Source: Thermococcus radiotolerans (GTDB lineage: Archaea > Methanobacteriota_B > Thermococci > Thermococcales > Thermococcaceae). Taken from it: 64,000 bases of DNA. Positions within the stretch are counted from its first letter, which is position 1. Every line of letters begins with the position of its first letter. The DNA lies in the NCBI RefSeq assembly GCF_002214565.1, contig NZ_CP015106.1:1798001-1862000 (forward strand), written 5' to 3'. Below are positions 23,475 through 30,272 of the stretch, one piece after another. The notes beneath the pieces are model-generated. The model had not been told where the DNA came from, searched no databases, and saw nothing but the letters and a program-made list of their open reading frames with translations. Both the position numbers and the translations under genes were made by a program.

Positions 23475-24011
23475 TCACTCCTTCTTTCCAAACTTTTCCT
23501 TGTAGAGCTCGATGGCGCGGAGGATCTCCTTCTTGGCCTCCTCGGCGTTGCCCCAGCCCTCTATCTTGGTGACCTTGCCCTGGAGCTCCTTGTAGCGCTG
23601 GAAGAAGTGGGCAACCTCGTCGAGGAAGGCCTTCGGGACGTCGTCTATGTCCTTCCAGTCGTCGAAGTACGGGTCTTCAACGGGGACGGCGAGGACCTTC
23701 CAGTCCTTATCTCCGGAGTCCTCCATCTTCATGATGCCTATCGGTCTCGCCTCGATGAGCGTGAGCGGGTAAACCGGCTCGCGCATGATGACCATAATGT
23801 CAAAGGGGTCGCCGTCGTCGTACCAGGTCTGCGGGATTATTCCGTAGTCGACCGGGTAGAAGAACGGGCTGTAGAGTACTCTATCGAGCTTTATAAGGCC
23901 GGTCTTCTTGTCGAGCTCGTACTTGTTCCTGCTTCCCTTCGGAATCTCTATGAGAGCGTAAACGACCTCTGGAACCTCCGGTCCGGGCTCAAGCTCGTGG
24001 AACGGGTTCAT
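23475..24011 (-). CDS. ppa: Inorganic pyrophosphatase (family I)
   Basis: 178-residue soluble pyrophosphatase. Metal and substrate motifs are all present: [40 protein letters not shown] (cut as [10 protein letters not shown]), and [18 protein letters not shown]. Hydrolyses pyrophosphate from nucleotide and tRNA reactions and drives them forward. GAGGTGG ribosome-binding site upstream. A TATA-like CTTTTAAAG lies near 24072 on the minus strand. Confidence 0.96.
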
Positions 24012-24122: not shown

Positions 24123-25145
24123 TCAGTTGGCCTCATCCCCTTCCTGGGGCAATGGCTTCCGGTACTCGTAGGATATTCCGTCGTCTATTATGGCGAAGAC
24201 CTCGTCCTCACCGTCTATATAGTGAAGTATCGGCTTGTCCACAAGCTCGAAGGTCGTCTCCAAATCCTTGGGGGTCTTCAGGACGACCCTCTTCTGCACG
24301 GGCCCTGGTGCGCCCTTGACTATGTACGGCCTTATCTTGGCCAGCTCATCCTTGGGCGGTCTTGCGGTGTACACGTATCCGAGGAGGGGTACCAGCATGA
24401 GGAGTGCCAGCAGTGTAGTTACCACTTTGGCTGTATCCAGGTCGCTCTCCACTCCCAGAACGTTTGCGCTGACTTCTTCCCTGGTCGTCTTTGTTAGCGT
24501 TCTCTTTGCGGTCTTGGTTGTGTCCGTGAAGTAGTAAAGGCCCGCACCGCCGTCCCTTACTAGCTCCACCTCTTGATCAAAGTTCTCGTTTATCGTCTTT
24601 CCACCGACTTCCCCGGTTCCTTCAACGGTGGTTGTGATGATAACGCGCCGGTTCAATCTCCGGATTCCGAGTTCTTCCGCCACGTTTGCGTTCATTTCGT
24701 CAAGTTTGCCCATATCAAGCGTGTATTCAACCGTGAATCCACCATTCTGGAGCTTACCCTTCTCGTCAAAGAGGGTTTCCTCCCACATTATGACCTCATC
24801 ACTACCCTTGTTGACGTAGTAGATGACCTTTCCCGTGACTTCGTATGTGCCGCTGCTCAGCGGGGGGTCTGAGCGGTACGTGTACATCAGCAGGAACCTG
24901 TCGACTAGGGATATTGGGTACTCGTCCCTGAACACCATGTAGCCGTAGAGTTCGTTGGGCTTGAGGTAGGCGGCATGCTTTAGCTGGCCTTCCTCCCTGA
25001 ACGTTCCAAGTCTCTGTGTGTTCACCACGTACGGGCTTGCGCTCATGAGCTTCACGGAATAAAATCCAAACACTAGGAAGAGAATCAGGAATACTCCCAG
25101 GACTTCCTTCCTCCTAATAAATCTCGAAACATCTTCTTTCTTCAT
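24123..25145 (-). CDS. DUF5305 membrane protein of the TasA-like filament cluster
   Basis: 340 residues. One N-terminal membrane helix (VLGVFLILFLVFGFYSV) is followed by a large extracellular beta-rich part with the DUF5305 hallmark HAAYLKPNELYG, a second helix near residue 250 (VTTLLALLMLVPLLGYVY), and a cytosolic C-terminal domain. DUF5305 proteins have no known function but recur beside archaeal signal peptidases. ATGA overlap with the adhesin-like gene makes this the last gene of the cluster; a membrane scaffold for the filaments is plausible but inferred. Confidence 0.75.
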   Translation of the reverse strand: MKKEDVSRFIRRKEVLGVFLILFLVFGFYSVKLMSASPYVVNTQRLGTFREEGQLKHAAYLKPNELYGYMVFRDEYPISLVDRFLLMYTYRSDPPLSSGTYEVTGKVIYYVNKGSDEVIMWEETLFDEKGKLQNGGFTVEYTLDMGKLDEMNANVAEELGIRRLNRRVIITTTVEGTGEVGGKTINENFDQEVELVRDGGAGLYYFTDTTKTAKRTLTKTTREEVSANVLGVESDLDTAKVVTTLLALLMLVPLLGYVYTARPPKDELAKIRPYIVKGAPGPVQKRVVLKTPKDLETTFELVDKPILHYIDGEDEVFAIIDDGISYEYRKPLPQEGDEAN

Positions 25146-26587
25146 CCTTCACATGCCTCCATGCCAGTGTCTGATTCTAACCCGGGGCCATCAATGTCGT
25201 TGACTTCGTTTACCCCGACTATGTTTTCTCCAGTTCCGTGGCAGCCGCATTTGTAAACGTAGACGTATTTCGGACAGCTTTTGCATCCGCATCCTACCAC
25301 GCATGGGCGACTAACCAACATGACCTTCTTCCTGTTGCAGTGTATGCTTATCCCGTCCGTGTGTTCGTATAGGTTGAGCTTTGCGGTTTCCCTTGGGGTA
25401 AGGTGAAGAGTCCAGGTTACTAGGGTCCTTCCGTCCGGCATATTGGTGGTTGAGACGGTACCTTTACTCGGGACGTAGTTTTCAAGTGTGAAGTACTTGC
25501 CTACGTACTGAACTATCGTTACGTCCTTTTCGTTGCCGGTGTTTTTGACAAAGATTCGTGTGTGATAGTCAGCGGGTTTGTTGACTTTCAAACATCCGGG
25601 TCCGCTGATCCAGCGGTTGGCAACGCGGAGCTTGCAGTCGTTGCCGCCGTCACACTTCACTGTGACGTTGATTCCGTTGCTCCTGATGTCGTAGCCTTTT
25701 ATCTCGGCACCCTCATTCAGTGGGTATTCTCCGCACGAGGTAAACTCCTGCTGTCCTCCATTGTTTATCCTGGTGAATATAGTTACGTTTATGTGGGCAC
25801 TTCCTCCCGCCGGGATCGTTACGTTCCATTCCATCTTCGTGGCCGGCTGGGCGTGTCCGCCTCCACAATGTCCTCCGCACTGGTGTCCCTCATTCGCTGC
25901 CCAGAACCTGTACGTGCCGGCACTTGCGCTGGTTCTGCCTAGGCTCACGTTGAATTCCGCAGGTATCGTGTCGGTTATGGTCAGGGTGAGGTCTTCTCCG
26001 GTGGGATTTGTCACAAGTATCTGGAAGACCCATTCCTGATACGTCTTTAGTGGTATATCGCTGGTGTTGCCGTGAAGGAGTATCTTTTCGATGGTCGGCC
26101 CGCCCCTTACGATTAGTTTTATGGAGCAGGTCTCTATGACGGCATCTCCCCCGTTCCAGCGGGCGTACATGGTGACTGGAATCACATACTCCCCAGGCAC
26201 AACGTCACTCACGCTCACGTGTCCGGCGAATGTGTACTCGTCTTCCGATGCTATCATTCTCTCGGTTCCGTCTTCCGTTTCTATGAACATGTCAACGTTG
26301 CCCGGAAGACCTGAGTAGTCCGGATCCAGCCGTATCCAAACGTTCTTCATTTCGTTCAGGTAGTTCCTGACAGTTAATGCATCAAAGTCGGTCTCGCTGT
26401 GGGGACCCACCTCCACAACTGCGGCGTAGCCGTCTTCACAGTCAAAGCCTAAGTATTCATTTTCGTGGGGTACAACCTGAACCTTAACCTCTCTCGATGC
26501 CTCGAAGCTTACAAAAGTTCCACTGGAGCCTACGAGAATCAGCGATGCCAGTGCAAGTGTTATGATGATTGAGAATAGAGCTTTCAT
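25142..26587 (-). CDS. Cys/His-rich adhesin-like protein with filament-subunit N terminus
   Basis: 481 residues. N terminus MKALFSIIITLALASLILVG is a signal segment, followed by GTFVSFEASREVKVQVVPHENE. This matches the mature N termini of the TasA-like subunits encoded downstream in coordinate order (FAYFEAERNVHIQIVPDDNE). Next come two Ig/DUF11-like beta domains (LTLTITDTIPAEFNVSLG; KPADYHTRIFVKNTGNEKDV). Inserted is CGGHCGGGHAQP, and the end holds a Cys cluster, CVVGCGCKSCP. A filament-tip or minor subunit is likely. ATGA overlaps on both sides. Confidence 0.7.
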   Translation of the reverse strand: MKALFSIIITLALASLILVGSSGTFVSFEASREVKVQVVPHENEYLGFDCEDGYAAVVEVGPHSETDFDALTVRNYLNEMKNVWIRLDPDYSGLPGNVDMFIETEDGTERMIASEDEYTFAGHVSVSDVVPGEYVIPVTMYARWNGGDAVIETCSIKLIVRGGPTIEKILLHGNTSDIPLKTYQEWVFQILVTNPTGEDLTLTITDTIPAEFNVSLGRTSASAGTYRFWAANEGHQCGGHCGGGHAQPATKMEWNVTIPAGGSAHINVTIFTRINNGGQQEFTSCGEYPLNEGAEIKGYDIRSNGINVTVKCDGGNDCKLRVANRWISGPGCLKVNKPADYHTRIFVKNTGNEKDVTIVQYVGKYFTLENYVPSKGTVSTTNMPDGRTLVTWTLHLTPRETAKLNLYEHTDGISIHCNRKKVMLVSRPCVVGCGCKSCPKYVYVYKCGCHGTGENIVGVNEVNDIDGPGLESDTGMEACEG

Positions 26588-27651
26588 ATCCTAAACACCT
26601 CCGATATCCCTCTAAGGAAGGAAGTCCTCCTTCTCCTGATTCTAAGAACATCCTCGTTTCCGACGCCTGAGACCATGTAAAGCACTGCCAAGAATGCAGA
26701 TATCTCGAGTAGAATTGCTAGGAGAGGAACCATTGGATGAATCTGATAGAGGCGACCAACAATTGAGGACGGAAGTATGGGGATGTACGCGTTGACCTGG
26801 ACTTTGGGGGCGTACATGGCAGTTGTCTGTGGGGCTTTGATGGTTACTACGATGGTTTCTTCCTCCCCACCTCCCAGCTTGAACTCTTCCTTTGATACAT
26901 CAGTTATCGTTGGTCCTGGGGAGATATAATACAGCATGGGGTATATGTTGTTGTTTTTGATCGTGAGTTCGTTCTGGAACTCCTCACCGGGGAGATACCA
27001 TCCCTCTCTCAGGCCTCCGGCAGAGGTCACGGAGTACGTTATTGGGATTGCTTCCCAGGATACAAATGTTGAAACTGCAACCATTAGGAGGAGAAAGACC
27101 GATGCCAATGCGTAGAGGGTCTTAAACTTTATTGTGAGCTTTTTTTTCCTTCTCTTTGCGCTCTTCGACGCCTCATCCCCCGTAAAAGCTAGAATTCCGA
27201 CGATGATCAAAAGTCCAGCAAAGAGTATCTTTCCTCTGTCAGAGATACCGGTTTCGAGATAGTTCCCCAGCCGGGGTATCTTTATAGGAGTCCCACTAAC
27301 AGTCACCACGGTTCCAGCTATCTTATCCCTGGATATAGGTTGGATGTTATGGCTTTGCTGGTCTGTTGCAATGTTATTGTCGCCTTTGGTTATGTAGCCC
27401 TCTTCCGTCACAGCGTAAACCCTGTGAACCGTCCATACGCTCCCAGTCTGGAACACTATTATGTCTCCAACGTCTGGATTTCTTGCCAGTGGATTTATGA
27501 AGAATATGTCTCCCTTGTTTATTGTAGGGGTCATGCTTTCAGAATACGCATAGGACATGAAAACGGGTCTGTCTAACAGTACCCCTGCTAATGATCCAAT
27601 AACTAGGATACCAATGATTGCAAGAAGGGGATATTCAATTAACGCCCTCAT
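26584..27651 (-). CDS. SipW-like signal peptidase I with extra extracellular domain
   Basis: 355 residues. N-terminal S26B peptidase domain: membrane helix, YSESMTPTINKGD with the catalytic Ser, and WTVHRVYAV with His in place of the bacterial Lys, as in archaeal/eukaryotic enzymes and SipW. KGDNNIATD follows. After a helix near residue 165 and a Lys/Arg run, a second helix ends STFVSWEAIPITYSV, then an Ig-like domain and a final helix. The ATG at 27651 overlaps the previous stop (ATGA). It probably processes the TasA-like subunits encoded in the same operon. Confidence 0.85.
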   Translation of the reverse strand: MRALIEYPLLAIIGILVIGSLAGVLLDRPVFMSYAYSESMTPTINKGDIFFINPLARNPDVGDIIVFQTGSVWTVHRVYAVTEEGYITKGDNNIATDQQSHNIQPISRDKIAGTVVTVSGTPIKIPRLGNYLETGISDRGKILFAGLLIIVGILAFTGDEASKSAKRRKKKLTIKFKTLYALASVFLLLMVAVSTFVSWEAIPITYSVTSAGGLREGWYLPGEEFQNELTIKNNNIYPMLYYISPGPTITDVSKEEFKLGGGEEETIVVTIKAPQTTAMYAPKVQVNAYIPILPSSIVGRLYQIHPMVPLLAILLEISAFLAVLYMVSGVGNEDVLRIRRRRTSFLRGISEVFRI

Positions 27652-28157
27652 CCGCAGCTTCCTCCCCAGGCTTCTATTGTTATGCTCTCGCTGTAATCTC
27701 CTAAGGGCAGGCCGTGGGTATCGACCCACACTCCGATGTTTACATTCTCATCGGCTTGAAGGGTCACCTCAATGACTTCGCTCCAACTGCCCTCAAAATC
27801 GTCCACGAAGAATCCTATTTTAGGTGTCTTTGAGCTTATCCTCACGCATATCTCATCGTATCCAGTCTCGCTTTGGTTGTTTTCGATTGTAAACACTCCC
27901 TCAAAAACGTAGGTGGTGTTTACACTAAGTCCATCACCTTCTCCGGGATAAAAAGGGTTGTTTGAGGATATGTCGACGACAAGAACTTCATTCTCCAGAT
28001 ACGCATACGGGGGAAGGGGATTCTCTACTGAGGGGTTTCCCTCCTCTGGAGTGGCATACACAACCGTGAGTGGGTCTGGGGGATATATTCCCCAGACTCC
28101 GATGAGCAGGATTATCATAATGCCAATGCCCGTAACAATCTTTGTCTTCGTTCCCAT
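27648..28157 (-). CDS. TasA/DUF1102-like subunit, third copy
   Basis: 169 residues. A basic start and a hydrophobic helix (IVTGIGIMIILLIGVWGI) are followed by a beta domain clearly related to the two neighbours: PPYAYLENEVLVVDISSNNP, SVNTTYVFEGVFTIENN, and a Cys-containing end. It is shorter and more divergent and lacks the VVPDDNELIDL segment, so it may be a specialised subunit such as an initiator or anchor (inference). Start ATG 28157 (28160 also possible) after GGGGGAG; a 72-base gap separates it from the upstream copy. Confidence 0.7.
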   Translation of the reverse strand: MGTKTKIVTGIGIMIILLIGVWGIYPPDPLTVVYATPEEGNPSVENPLPPYAYLENEVLVVDISSNNPFYPGEGDGLSVNTTYVFEGVFTIENNQSETGYDEICVRISSKTPKIGFFVDDFEGSWSEVIEVTLQADENVNIGVWVDTHGLPLGDYSESITIEAWGGSCG

Positions 28158-28229
28158 CATCTCTCCCCCTAATAATAAAGTAAGACAAAAGGAGCAAATG
28201 CTCCACAAACTAAACTATCACTGAGGTCC

Positions 28230-28781
28230 TCACTTACACTCTCCAGCTACTGCGTAGAAGTGTAACTGACCTGTGATGGACTCTCCGGCGTTCATATTAG
28301 TGCTGTCAAGGATCATGCCTATCCTTGCAACGTCTCCGGGCATTATGGTAACCTTGAGATGGTCGCTGCCAACGGTCTGGCCGGGCACGTAGTCGCCCTC
28401 AAAGAAGAGGATTCCACCGTCACCGGAGTAGGATATTTCCATACAGATTGGGGTCTGCTCCCAGAGGTCGTTGCTCACGCCGAATACTTCCTCAAAGACG
28501 TAGGTGCTGTTCGGGCTGACGCCCTCTCCGGGGTCAAATCCTTCCTTCACGAGTCTCTTGAATTCCGTATTGTTCTTACTGAGCTCTACAACGAGCATAC
28601 CTTTCCCTGTTATGTACGCGTAGGGCTGGAGCGGTGTCAGGTCAATGAGCTCATTGTCGTCGGGGACGATCTGAATGTGAACGTTCCTCTCCGCTTCAAA
28701 GTACGCGAAGTGGGCGCTGCTGGCAGCAACGGCGACTAGTAGTCCAATCATCAGTGCAAGGAGTCCGAGTATTTTTCTCAT
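28230..28781 (-). CDS. TasA/DUF1102-like filament subunit
   Basis: 183 residues. SipW-type signal segment MRKILGLLALMIGLLVAVAA, then SSAHFAYFEAERNVHIQIVPDDNELIDLTPLQPYAYI (key part ERNVHIQIVPDDNE), and a beta-sandwich-like domain (YVFEEVFGVSND, PICMEISYSGDGGILFFEGD) with two cysteines. Related to archaeal DUF1102 proteins and, by layout, to TasA/AbpA subunits that assemble by donor-strand exchange. The ATG at 28781 follows GGTGGCTGAG inside the end of the upstream copy. Confidence 0.78.
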   Translation of the reverse strand: MRKILGLLALMIGLLVAVAASSAHFAYFEAERNVHIQIVPDDNELIDLTPLQPYAYITGKGMLVVELSKNNTEFKRLVKEGFDPGEGVSPNSTYVFEEVFGVSNDLWEQTPICMEISYSGDGGILFFEGDYVPGQTVGSDHLKVTIMPGDVARIGMILDSTNMNAGESITGQLHFYAVAGECK

Positions 28782-28782
28782 C

Positions 28783-29436
28783 TCAGCCACCTCCGCACGA
28801 TACGTCATCCGGAACGTTGTCTGCTGGCCACGCCATAATGGTTATGGTCACGTCCTTGCTGCCGAGTCCATTGCCTGCTAGTTCCATGCCAACACCCAGG
28901 GCCTCCCCGGGTTCAAGAAGGAAGCAGACGTCTCCAAGGGCAGTGTCAGAGCTTGTGGGGGTGGTGTCATAGTCGCTGGTGTCATGCATCTTCCCCTTCT
29001 CAGCGTCATAGAATGAGACGGTACCATCATCTGAGGAGATAATCCTGACAACAATGGGCGTCTGCTCCCAGAGGTGGTTGCTCACGTTGAACACGTGGTC
29101 AAAGTTGTACCTGCTCTGCGGGCTCAGGCCGGCTCCTTTCGGCGCCACGGGCTGGTCGTCTTCCCAAATCCACCACTTCTCCCAATCCTTGTTGTACTCC
29201 GGGTTTCCGGGCCAGTGGGGGTTGTTCTTTGAGAAGTCAATAACCAGTTGCCCTCCATCATTTATGTATGCGTAGGGCTGGACCGGCGTTAGATCGATGA
29301 GCTCATCGTCGTCTGGAACGACGGCGATGTGGACGCTTCTCTGGGACCGGTAGTCCCTGAAGGTAGCGCTCGTGCCTAGTGCAAAGGCCGCCGCGATCAT
29401 CAGCCCCAGCATACCGAGGGCCAAAATTTTCTTCAT
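28783..29436 (-). CDS. TasA/DUF1102-like filament subunit, first copy
   Basis: 217 residues: signal segment MKKILALGMLGLMIAAAFAL, then TSATFRDYRSQRSVHIAVVPDDDELIDL and VQPYAYINDGGQLVIDFSKN. This copy carries an extra loop rich in Trp/Asp/Lys (NKDWEKWWIWEDDQP) absent from the next copy. Its position first in the operon, with its own promoter and GGAGGAATGT ribosome-binding site, makes it the likely major subunit. Start ATG 29436; an upstream in-frame ATG at 29460 would not fit the site. Confidence 0.78.
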   Translation of the reverse strand: MKKILALGMLGLMIAAAFALGTSATFRDYRSQRSVHIAVVPDDDELIDLTPVQPYAYINDGGQLVIDFSKNNPHWPGNPEYNKDWEKWWIWEDDQPVAPKGAGLSPQSRYNFDHVFNVSNHLWEQTPIVVRIISSDDGTVSFYDAEKGKMHDTSDYDTTPTSSDTALGDVCFLLEPGEALGVGMELAGNGLGSKDVTITIMAWPADNVPDDVSCGGG

Positions 29437-29517
29437 GGTACATTCCTCCATGTTTTCCAAACCGACACCCTAGGCGAAGGCCATCATAGGGATGTCTCAT
29501 TGACTATAGTGACGTCA

Positions 29518-29530
29518 ACCTATATAGTAA
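29518..29530 (-). promoter_or_regulatory. Promoter of the TasA-like filament operon
   Basis: Minus-strand ATTTACTATATAGG (about 29532-29519) is a TATA-like element. The predicted transcript starts near 29495 with a leader of about 60 bases before the ATG at 29436. It separates the structural genes from the two regulators upstream, so the two groups can be expressed separately. Confidence 0.5.
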
Positions 29531-29617
29531 ATTCCGGCTTACTGGGTGGTAATCCCTCGTTACCAGAGGTAAAAGGGCCCAGTTTGATTAGAAGAGACGG
29601 ATTGTAGCAGTATTCTG

Positions 29618-30052
29618 CTAAAACAGCCTCTTAATCTTCTTGTGGTGGATTATACTTATAATCAGATACACCATGGCAGCCAGCAACAACGGCATGCTGC
29701 CCAAGTACCAGCCCGCGATGATGAATATTACCGACGTTCCCATGTAGAAGGTACTCCAGCTTATGTCGTGCTTGTTGACTACCTCCATGTAAACTGTCAC
29801 ATCGTCGGGAACCTTCAGGAGCGTGACGACGCCGTGGTTGAAGGTTATGACGCCCTCCCTCTCTAACTTGGGAATGTGCGTCTGAACCAGGCTGACGTAG
29901 ACGCTTTTCCTGTGCTTCCGATCTGTGTCTCCTTCCCTCTCGGCTATGTACTCAACGAGCTCCCTGAGCTCGGCGTGTCCCTCTTTCTCCTTTAGGTACT
30001 CTATCATTAACATTCTTCTGTCGTTTCCGAGTATCGTGGTTGTCGCGCCCAT
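29618..30052 (-). CDS. Membrane-anchored winged-helix regulator
   Basis: 144 residues. N-terminal winged-helix domain (NDRRMLMIEYLKEKEGHAEL, LVQTHIPKLEREGVITFNHG) is followed by two C-terminal membrane helices (TFYMGTSVIFIIAGWYLGS and LLLAAMVYLIISII). This layout matches the DUF7344-type one-component regulators common beside archaeal signal-peptidase/surface clusters. The ATG at 30052 has GGTGATAGA directly before it; the longer frame from 30091 would overlap the upstream gene. Probably senses the membrane and controls the filament operon (inference). Confidence 0.75.
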   Translation of the reverse strand: MGATTTILGNDRRMLMIEYLKEKEGHAELRELVEYIAEREGDTDRKHRKSVYVSLVQTHIPKLEREGVITFNHGVVTLLKVPDDVTVYMEVVNKHDISWSTFYMGTSVIFIIAGWYLGSMPLLLAAMVYLIISIIHHKKIKRLF

Positions 30053-30056
30053 TCTA

Positions 30057-30272
30057 TCACCGCAACCTGTAATGCTTTCTCTTATTTCCATTGGTGTAGA
30101 ATGCTTCCACCTTCTTCTGCTCCACTAGTTTCCTGAGGGTTCTCTCAACCTTCTGCCTCGTGCAGAAAATGCCTCTCTCATTGAGGAACCGCGTCAGAAA
30201 AGCGACACTGAGTGATCCGTGGACCCTGAGGAGGTTCATAATCTCAACCTCCAGGTTAACTACATTGCTCAC
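30057..30272 (-). CDS. Small winged-helix DNA-binding protein
   Basis: 71 residues, nearly all one winged-helix domain: EVEIMNLLRVHGSLSVAFLTRFL, KVERTLRKLVEQKKVEAFY, NKRKHYRLR. GTG start after GGGGGTGAGGAT. It is followed 4 bases later by the membrane-anchored regulator, so the two form one transcript from a TATA-like CTTTTAAATAC at 30345-30335. Probable regulator of the filament cluster. Confidence 0.7.
   Translation of the reverse strand: MSNVVNLEVEIMNLLRVHGSLSVAFLTRFLNERGIFCTRQKVERTLRKLVEQKKVEAFYTNGNKRKHYRLR

Follow-up and report, generated by a model that had tools for sequence, protein, structure and literature searches.

An archaeal DUF1102 gene cluster with a SipW-like signal peptidase is predicted to encode a donor-strand-exchange pilus

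A stretch of 64,000 nucleotides (nt) of the complete 1.87-Mb genome of Thermococcus radiotolerans (Thermococcaceae), hereafter referred to as the window, was analyzed with respect to a cluster of eight consecutive minus-strand genes that runs from position 30272 to position 24123. The genes encode a putative winged-helix protein, a DUF7344 regulator, subunits A, B and C, a signal peptidase, a large protein of 481 amino acids (aa) and a DUF5305 protein. Gene starts were refined with the help of GGAGG-like upstream sites and homologues; the starts of A, B, C, the peptidase and the DUF7344 regulator were corrected in this way and are the upper coordinates in Table 1. An earlier note on this DNA had described the genes as joined by overlaps. 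Overlaps of 4 nt are present only at the C/peptidase, peptidase/large protein and large protein/DUF5305 junctions; the gaps measure 1 nt between A and B, 69 nt between B and C, and 181 nt between the DUF7344 regulator and A. Matches to bacterial σ70 promoters at the locus, which are irrelevant to archaea, were at the shuffled level.

Table 1. Features of the cluster, in gene order (coordinates are those of the window)
Feature	Coordinates	Strand	Basis
Putative winged-helix protein, 71 aa, GTG start, first of the regulator pair	30057..30272	-	Winged-helix matches below cut-off; kept in most Thermococcaceae loci
DUF7344 winged-helix regulator, 144 aa, C-terminal transmembrane segment	29618..30052	-	Pfam; homologue in haloarchaeal Tafi clusters
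Subunit A, DUF1102 pilin, 217 aa, signal peptide, site TSA/TF, donor-strand segment	28783..29436	-	Pfam, alignment
Subunit B, DUF1102 pilin, 183 aa, site SSA/HF, donor-strand segment	28230..28781	-	Pfam, alignment, predicted fold
Stem-loop GGAGC-ATTT-GCTCC with T-rich tail, between pilin and accessory genes	28191..28204	-	Conservation, covariation
Subunit C, DUF1102 domain after N-terminal hydrophobic segment; proposed base/end subunit	27648..28160	-	Pfam, hhalign
SipW-like Ser-His signal peptidase, extra transmembrane segments and extracellular domain	26584..27651	-	NCBIfam, motifs, haloarchaeal homology
Large protein, 481 aa: signal peptide, donor-strand segment, pilin-like domain, immunoglobulin (Ig)/DUF11-like and Cys-rich parts; proposed tip	25142..26587	-	hhalign, alignment
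DUF5305 protein: transmembrane segment, β-sandwich ectodomain, transmembrane segment, small cytoplasmic domain; proposed assembly/anchoring platform	24123..25145	-	Pfam, predicted fold

The DUF1102 domain (PF06510) was detected in the three consecutive genes A, B and C with Pfam E-values of 6e-37, 8e-37 and 6e-30; the corresponding scores of 127, 127 and 105 bits exceed the gathering cut-off of 22.2 and place all three proteins in the family. The hydrophobic segment of A and B is followed by a cleavage region of the form G/S-A then x-Phe, and that of the large protein by S-G then x-Phe. All of 21 A/B sequences have Ala23 and Phe25, and all of 23 large proteins have Phe25 and Arg32. After the signal peptide, A and B continue with a conserved N-terminal strand, the F-x-x-x-x-A-x-R segment. 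A signal-peptidase site (Ala or Gly, then x-Phe) and an N-terminal strand are common to A, B and the large protein. A passage of one source describes the aromatic P2′ residue (Phe) of TasA as poorly handled by the Escherichia coli enzyme and cut by the archaeal-type SipW (PMC10269814). Neither PF12389 (Peptidase_M73, TasA/camelysin) nor TIGR04088 matched A, B, C or the large protein, and sequence searches of the PDB with subunit A, subunit B and the DUF1102 profile returned nothing relevant.

Subunit C is homologous to A and B (hhalign 100%), starts at the second part of the DUF1102 domain and is without the donor strand. It has an N-terminal hydrophobic segment, and the Ala-x-Phe cleavage site was absent from the 27 C sequences examined. 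Of the three related secreted subunits described in the earlier note, all are indeed related through DUF1102, but C is without the A/B cleavage motif and its secretion is unproven. The note had also recognized that the large protein shares the subunit N terminus, and its N-terminal 150 residues proved homologous to DUF1102 (hhalign 98%). From its sequence, the stretch after the pilin-like domain reads as Ig/DUF11-like, at sub-threshold Pfam matches; the large protein of the window has an extra C-terminal Cys-rich part that is missing from many relatives.

Mature subunit B was modelled from 60 sequences (predicted local distance difference test score, pLDDT, 86) and the model was compared with 350,542 PDB chains by two aligners. 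AbpA of the Pyrobaculum calidifontis bundling pilus (7ueg_A) was the sole match with an E-value below 0.001 (8e-5). It was also the top match of the second aligner, with Z 7.9 and a root-mean-square deviation of 3.4 Å over 116 residues at 11% identity; this aligner gave Z 7.3 for the Natrinema Tafi pilus (9p0a) and Z 7.1 for FimA. Csu and the Sulfolobus thread are, with FimA and 9p0a, among the matches listed, and the TasA fibre structures are not among them, which is no evidence against kinship. The predicted β-sandwich of the subunit resembles AbpA at moderate scores, and Z values below 8 may reflect a common arrangement. We give the match weight because the two programs agree and many donor-strand pilins lie near the top. 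A predicted fold unrelated to TasA and AbpA, named in the earlier note as a possible refutation, was not what we obtained.

The N-terminal segment of subunit B is among its most conserved parts, yet the pLDDT is below 50 at residues 1-6, with a block mean of 49 for residues 1-10, as expected of a strand that would need a partner. Matches to self-complemented FimA run from model residue 1, and those to polymeric AbpA and Tafi start at residue 19. From these ends of the match ranges we infer that the strand may fill the groove of its own subunit in the monomer and that of a neighbour in the fibre.

The cluster peptidase matched the NCBIfam archaeal signal peptidase I model TIGR02228 above its cut-off (E 5e-18), and the motifs SESMTP (S-x-S-M-x-P), VHRV (V-H-R) and KGDNN identify it as a Ser-His enzyme of the archaeal/endoplasmic reticulum type. 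Because three further signal peptidase genes are present in the genome, one of them inside a separate operon (L057, described below), it is an extra and probably dedicated enzyme. DUF5305 (PF17231) was found with a Pfam E-value of 5e-12 and 46.1 bits, above the gathering cut-off of 29; both this assignment and that of a His-type signal peptidase agree with the earlier note. In the model of the DUF5305 protein (pLDDT 90) a transmembrane segment is followed by a long-stranded β ectodomain, a second transmembrane segment and a small cytoplasmic domain. We rejected an assignment of function from this fold, which gave generic Ig-like matches only, the best being CsgC (Z 7.7), followed by transglutaminase and Asf1 domains. 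Since DUF5305 is common to this cluster, the L057 operon and one haloarchaeal Tafi cluster, the simplest guess is that it serves in assembly or in anchoring. A candidate homology of the peptidase ectodomain to DUF5305 was dropped (hhalign 1.6%). As for the two winged-helix regulators noted upstream, one is firmly supported as DUF7344 (Pfam E 3e-20; the sole DUF7344 gene in the genome), and the 71-aa protein gave only a weak winged-helix match, under Pfam cut-offs.

DUF1102 was found in 76 of the 81 sampled Thermococcaceae genomes (70 of the 72 high-quality ones) and in all six genera, and is almost absent from other families of the class. The order of the regulator, A, B, the peptidase and DUF5305 was kept in every one of the 20 Thermococcaceae loci that were fully read; 13 of these contain subunit C and 19 the large protein. 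When 84,980 species genomes were scanned, another 40 loci turned up in Thermococci and Archaeoglobi; on contigs of sufficient length, most of them show this order as well. Because the order recurs in 20/20 loci and in most of the 40 further ones, a chance grouping is excluded. A search for the gene set in other Thermococci, as proposed in the earlier note, was thus successful, and this synteny is the support, and the only one, for the complete, self-contained system postulated there. In five Archaeoglobi loci (L084, L085, L088, L093 and L096) the DUF5305 gene is inverted and lies upstream of the regulator, not at the end of the operon. In a peptidase tree, in which several forks are weak, two locus types were distinguished within Thermococcaceae (L065 and L067 versus L068, L072 and L089-L095), with Archaeoglobi sequences between and inside both; this suggests that the locus may have been exchanged or replaced between the two groups.

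Two single loci deviate in other ways. In one Thermococcus contig (L073:2340-7036) the regulators are separated from the pilin genes by a tandem array of related genes, about 5 kb long, whose proteins have a common GKHL...DCPEYKGKH pattern, like immunity-type repeats. At L056:6772-7838 (minus strand) the peptidase frame is split into two overlapping open reading frames, which a frameshift or an error in sequencing would explain.

The stem-loop located directly 3′ of B is the sole terminator-like site in the 6.7 kb between positions 23900 and 30600, and it has no match in Rfam. A GC-rich hairpin within 60 nt after B was present in 37 of 43 Thermococcaceae loci (0.3 expected from shuffling), a count that required pairing and no set sequence; the counts after other genes of the same loci were 0-3. 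Among 27 distinct stem-loop sequences, which were chosen for pairing and are 100% paired by construction, both-side changes occur in 4 of 5 pairs, and covariation was 0.344, compared to 0.146 for shuffled and at most 0.187 for slid versions. We read the stem-loop as a site of partial termination or 3′-end protection that favours pilin transcripts, and it probably sets a high pilin-to-accessory ratio. It is possible, if somewhat doubtful, that this element is an mRNA-stabilising 3′ end and neither a terminator nor an attenuator. Archaeal terminators depend on T-tracts more than on hairpins, and few T are found behind some of the stem-loops (3 of 12 in L077, L079 and L081). The T-rich tail behind most stem-loops argues against pure stabilisation, as do the T6-T8 tracts that, with no hairpin, occupy the same place in most Archaeoglobi loci.

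The gene set, the homologies, the cleavage motif, the predicted subunit fold and the parallel in the L057 operon support the view that the cluster encodes a donor-strand-exchange pilus system of the AbpA/Tafi kind. We estimate the probability of this reading at roughly 0.8; strand exchange, the positions of the parts, the effect on transcripts and the function are what we infer within it. Subunits A and B would be exported, cut by the SipW-like peptidase of the cluster just before x-Phe, and polymerised, each subunit filling the groove of the next with its released N-terminal strand. Because subunit C combines a pilin domain without donor strand and a retained hydrophobic N terminus, it would probably cap and anchor the base. 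The large protein, with its donor strand, pilin-like domain and extra Ig-like domains, would for that reason probably be the tip adhesin. The DUF5305 protein and the peptidase ectodomain, both membrane-bound β domains, would probably guide assembly, the DUF7344 regulator would control expression, and the stem-loop after B would lead to more pilin than accessory transcript. The pilus would serve in adhesion or aggregation. More tentatively, and with rather less than even confidence, we propose that a near-universal, hitherto unseen donor-strand pilus of Thermococci and Archaeoglobi has a membrane-anchored base pilin without donor strand and a pilin-to-accessory ratio set by a covarying stem-loop.

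Several points weigh against the pilus. The evidence for filaments is indirect. The AbpA fold match is moderate (template modelling score 0.4, Z below 8), β-sandwiches match many proteins, and PapD-like and SPD-2 domains, which are unrelated β-sandwiches, score nearly as high for subunit B. By sequence, DUF1102 matches neither AbpA nor TasA in the PDB. In subunit C, a conserved V-x-A motif could simply mark a normal cleavage site, and the anchor reading would then fall. In the comparison with Tafi proteins (see below), the hhalign values for C versus TafF (59.7%) and for the large protein versus TafC (23.8%) are both weak, and the TafA model gave only 12.0 and 13.1 bits on A and B against an equivalog cut-off of 190.

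The DUF1102 proteins could also make up a surface coat, secreted or membrane-attached, or a strand-complemented adhesin complex of few subunits, with no long pili. Two secreted subunits, a membrane-bound C and a large Ig-like protein would suit a short tip fibrillum as well, the filaments are so far a prediction, and a 2013 review gives the archaellum as the sole surface appendage of Pyrococcus furiosus (PMC4187195). We nevertheless consider a coat or short complex unlikely: two adjacent pilin genes with their own gap before and a conserved stem-loop after them suggest an abundant product, the homologous haloarchaeal cluster belongs to families named for a solved pilus (9p0a), and the best-scoring fold match comes from a polymeric pilus. 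A literature search gave no sign of anyone seeking such a pilus in the Thermococcus group, and no paper naming DUF1102 or DUF5305 was found in the literature searched. The donor-strand pilus reading proposes a concrete function for DUF1102, DUF5305 and DUF7344, and through a common peptidase and regulator it would join pili of Thermococci, Archaeoglobi and haloarchaea in one cluster type. On this reading almost all Thermococcaceae would bear a surface pilus; for one member of the group, P. furiosus, the archaellum has been reported as the sole appendage. Thermococcus kodakarensis is genetically tractable, so that assembly, anchoring and expression ratio are open to gene deletion.

Among known systems, Bacillus TasA/TapA/SipW, which makes donor-strand-exchange fibres (PMC9674648), is like the cluster in its SipW-type peptidase, its aromatic P2′ residue and the donor-strand principle, which for the cluster is proposed. 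It differs in that the thermococcal subunits are not Peptidase_M73 proteins, TapA is absent, and the DUF5305 and DUF7344 proteins are extra. A separate TasA-family operon is present in the same genome (L057:3126-7864; G000:C1:1633125-1637863), with genes for an Sso10a/HTH_45 regulator, two Peptidase_M73/TIGR04088 subunits, a small protein with two transmembrane segments, a third SipW-type subunit, a SipW-like peptidase and DUF5305. Like the DUF1102 cluster, it pairs the peptidase with DUF5305 (hhalign 97.8% and 98.6%); unlike it, it has TIGR04088/Peptidase_M73 subunits, the Sso10a/HTH_45 regulator and no DUF1102. A sequence-profile link from DUF1102 to the L057 subunits was weak (35-37%) and is not claimed. 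Two more solitary TasA-family genes are found in this genome, both on the minus strand (L129:6680-7426, adjoining two ArsR-like winged-helix regulator genes, and L130:6392-6988). It is highly improbable that the DUF1102 cluster itself encodes a genuine TasA/camelysin biofilm-matrix system and is the direct copy, in archaea, of Bacillus tapA-sipW-tasA: the SipW-like peptidase (36 bits with the NCBIfam SipW model), the A-x-F site and several related subunits fit, but Peptidase_M73 and TIGR04088 miss the DUF1102 subunits while matching those of L057, and the regulator and DUF5305 match a haloarchaeal cluster. Of the TasA/AbpA-type fibre in the earlier note, the AbpA part stands as the top fold match; the subunits are not of the TasA family by sequence, and Tafi had not been named.

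The AbpA structure that Wang and co-workers reportedly described in 2022 is said to be a secreted β-sandwich subunit with an N-terminal strand; this best fold match of subunit B has no detectable sequence similarity to it. Judged by sequence comparison, the haloarchaeal Tafi pilus comes closest among the described relatives; it is represented by the NCBIfam families TafA, TafC, TafE and TafF and by PDB entry 9p0a, entitled 'Natrinema sp. J7-2 Tafi pilus'. Three haloarchaeal TafA clusters (L147-L149) were compared with the thermococcal cluster by hhalign, with control (unrelated) pairs at 0.7-6%. Their signal peptidase is homologous to the cluster peptidase over 340 columns including the ectodomain (100%), their membrane DUF7344 regulator is homologous over its length (99.7%), and DUF5305 is present in one of the three (L147, 95.5%). 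The pilins match at 92%, within the N-terminal segment and with the same F-x4-A-x-R-x-V motif, and the TafF domain resembles DUF1102 (A/B profile versus TafF, 95.2%). Differences are that haloarchaeal Tafi pilins begin with a twin-arginine-like MNRR missing from thermococcal A and B, that TafC has ConA-like or bactofilin-like domains where the thermococcal large protein has Ig-like ones, and that TafF has a C-terminal transmembrane segment in two of three loci, that of subunit C being N-terminal. Many haloarchaeal genomes contain up to a dozen proteins whose similarity to TafA is confined to its N-terminal 40-60 residues, pointing to a large family in which a common export and donor-strand segment may be carried on varied bodies. 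The thermococcal cluster would work like Tafi and is of common ancestry with it as far as these comparisons go, but its pilins are not TafA.

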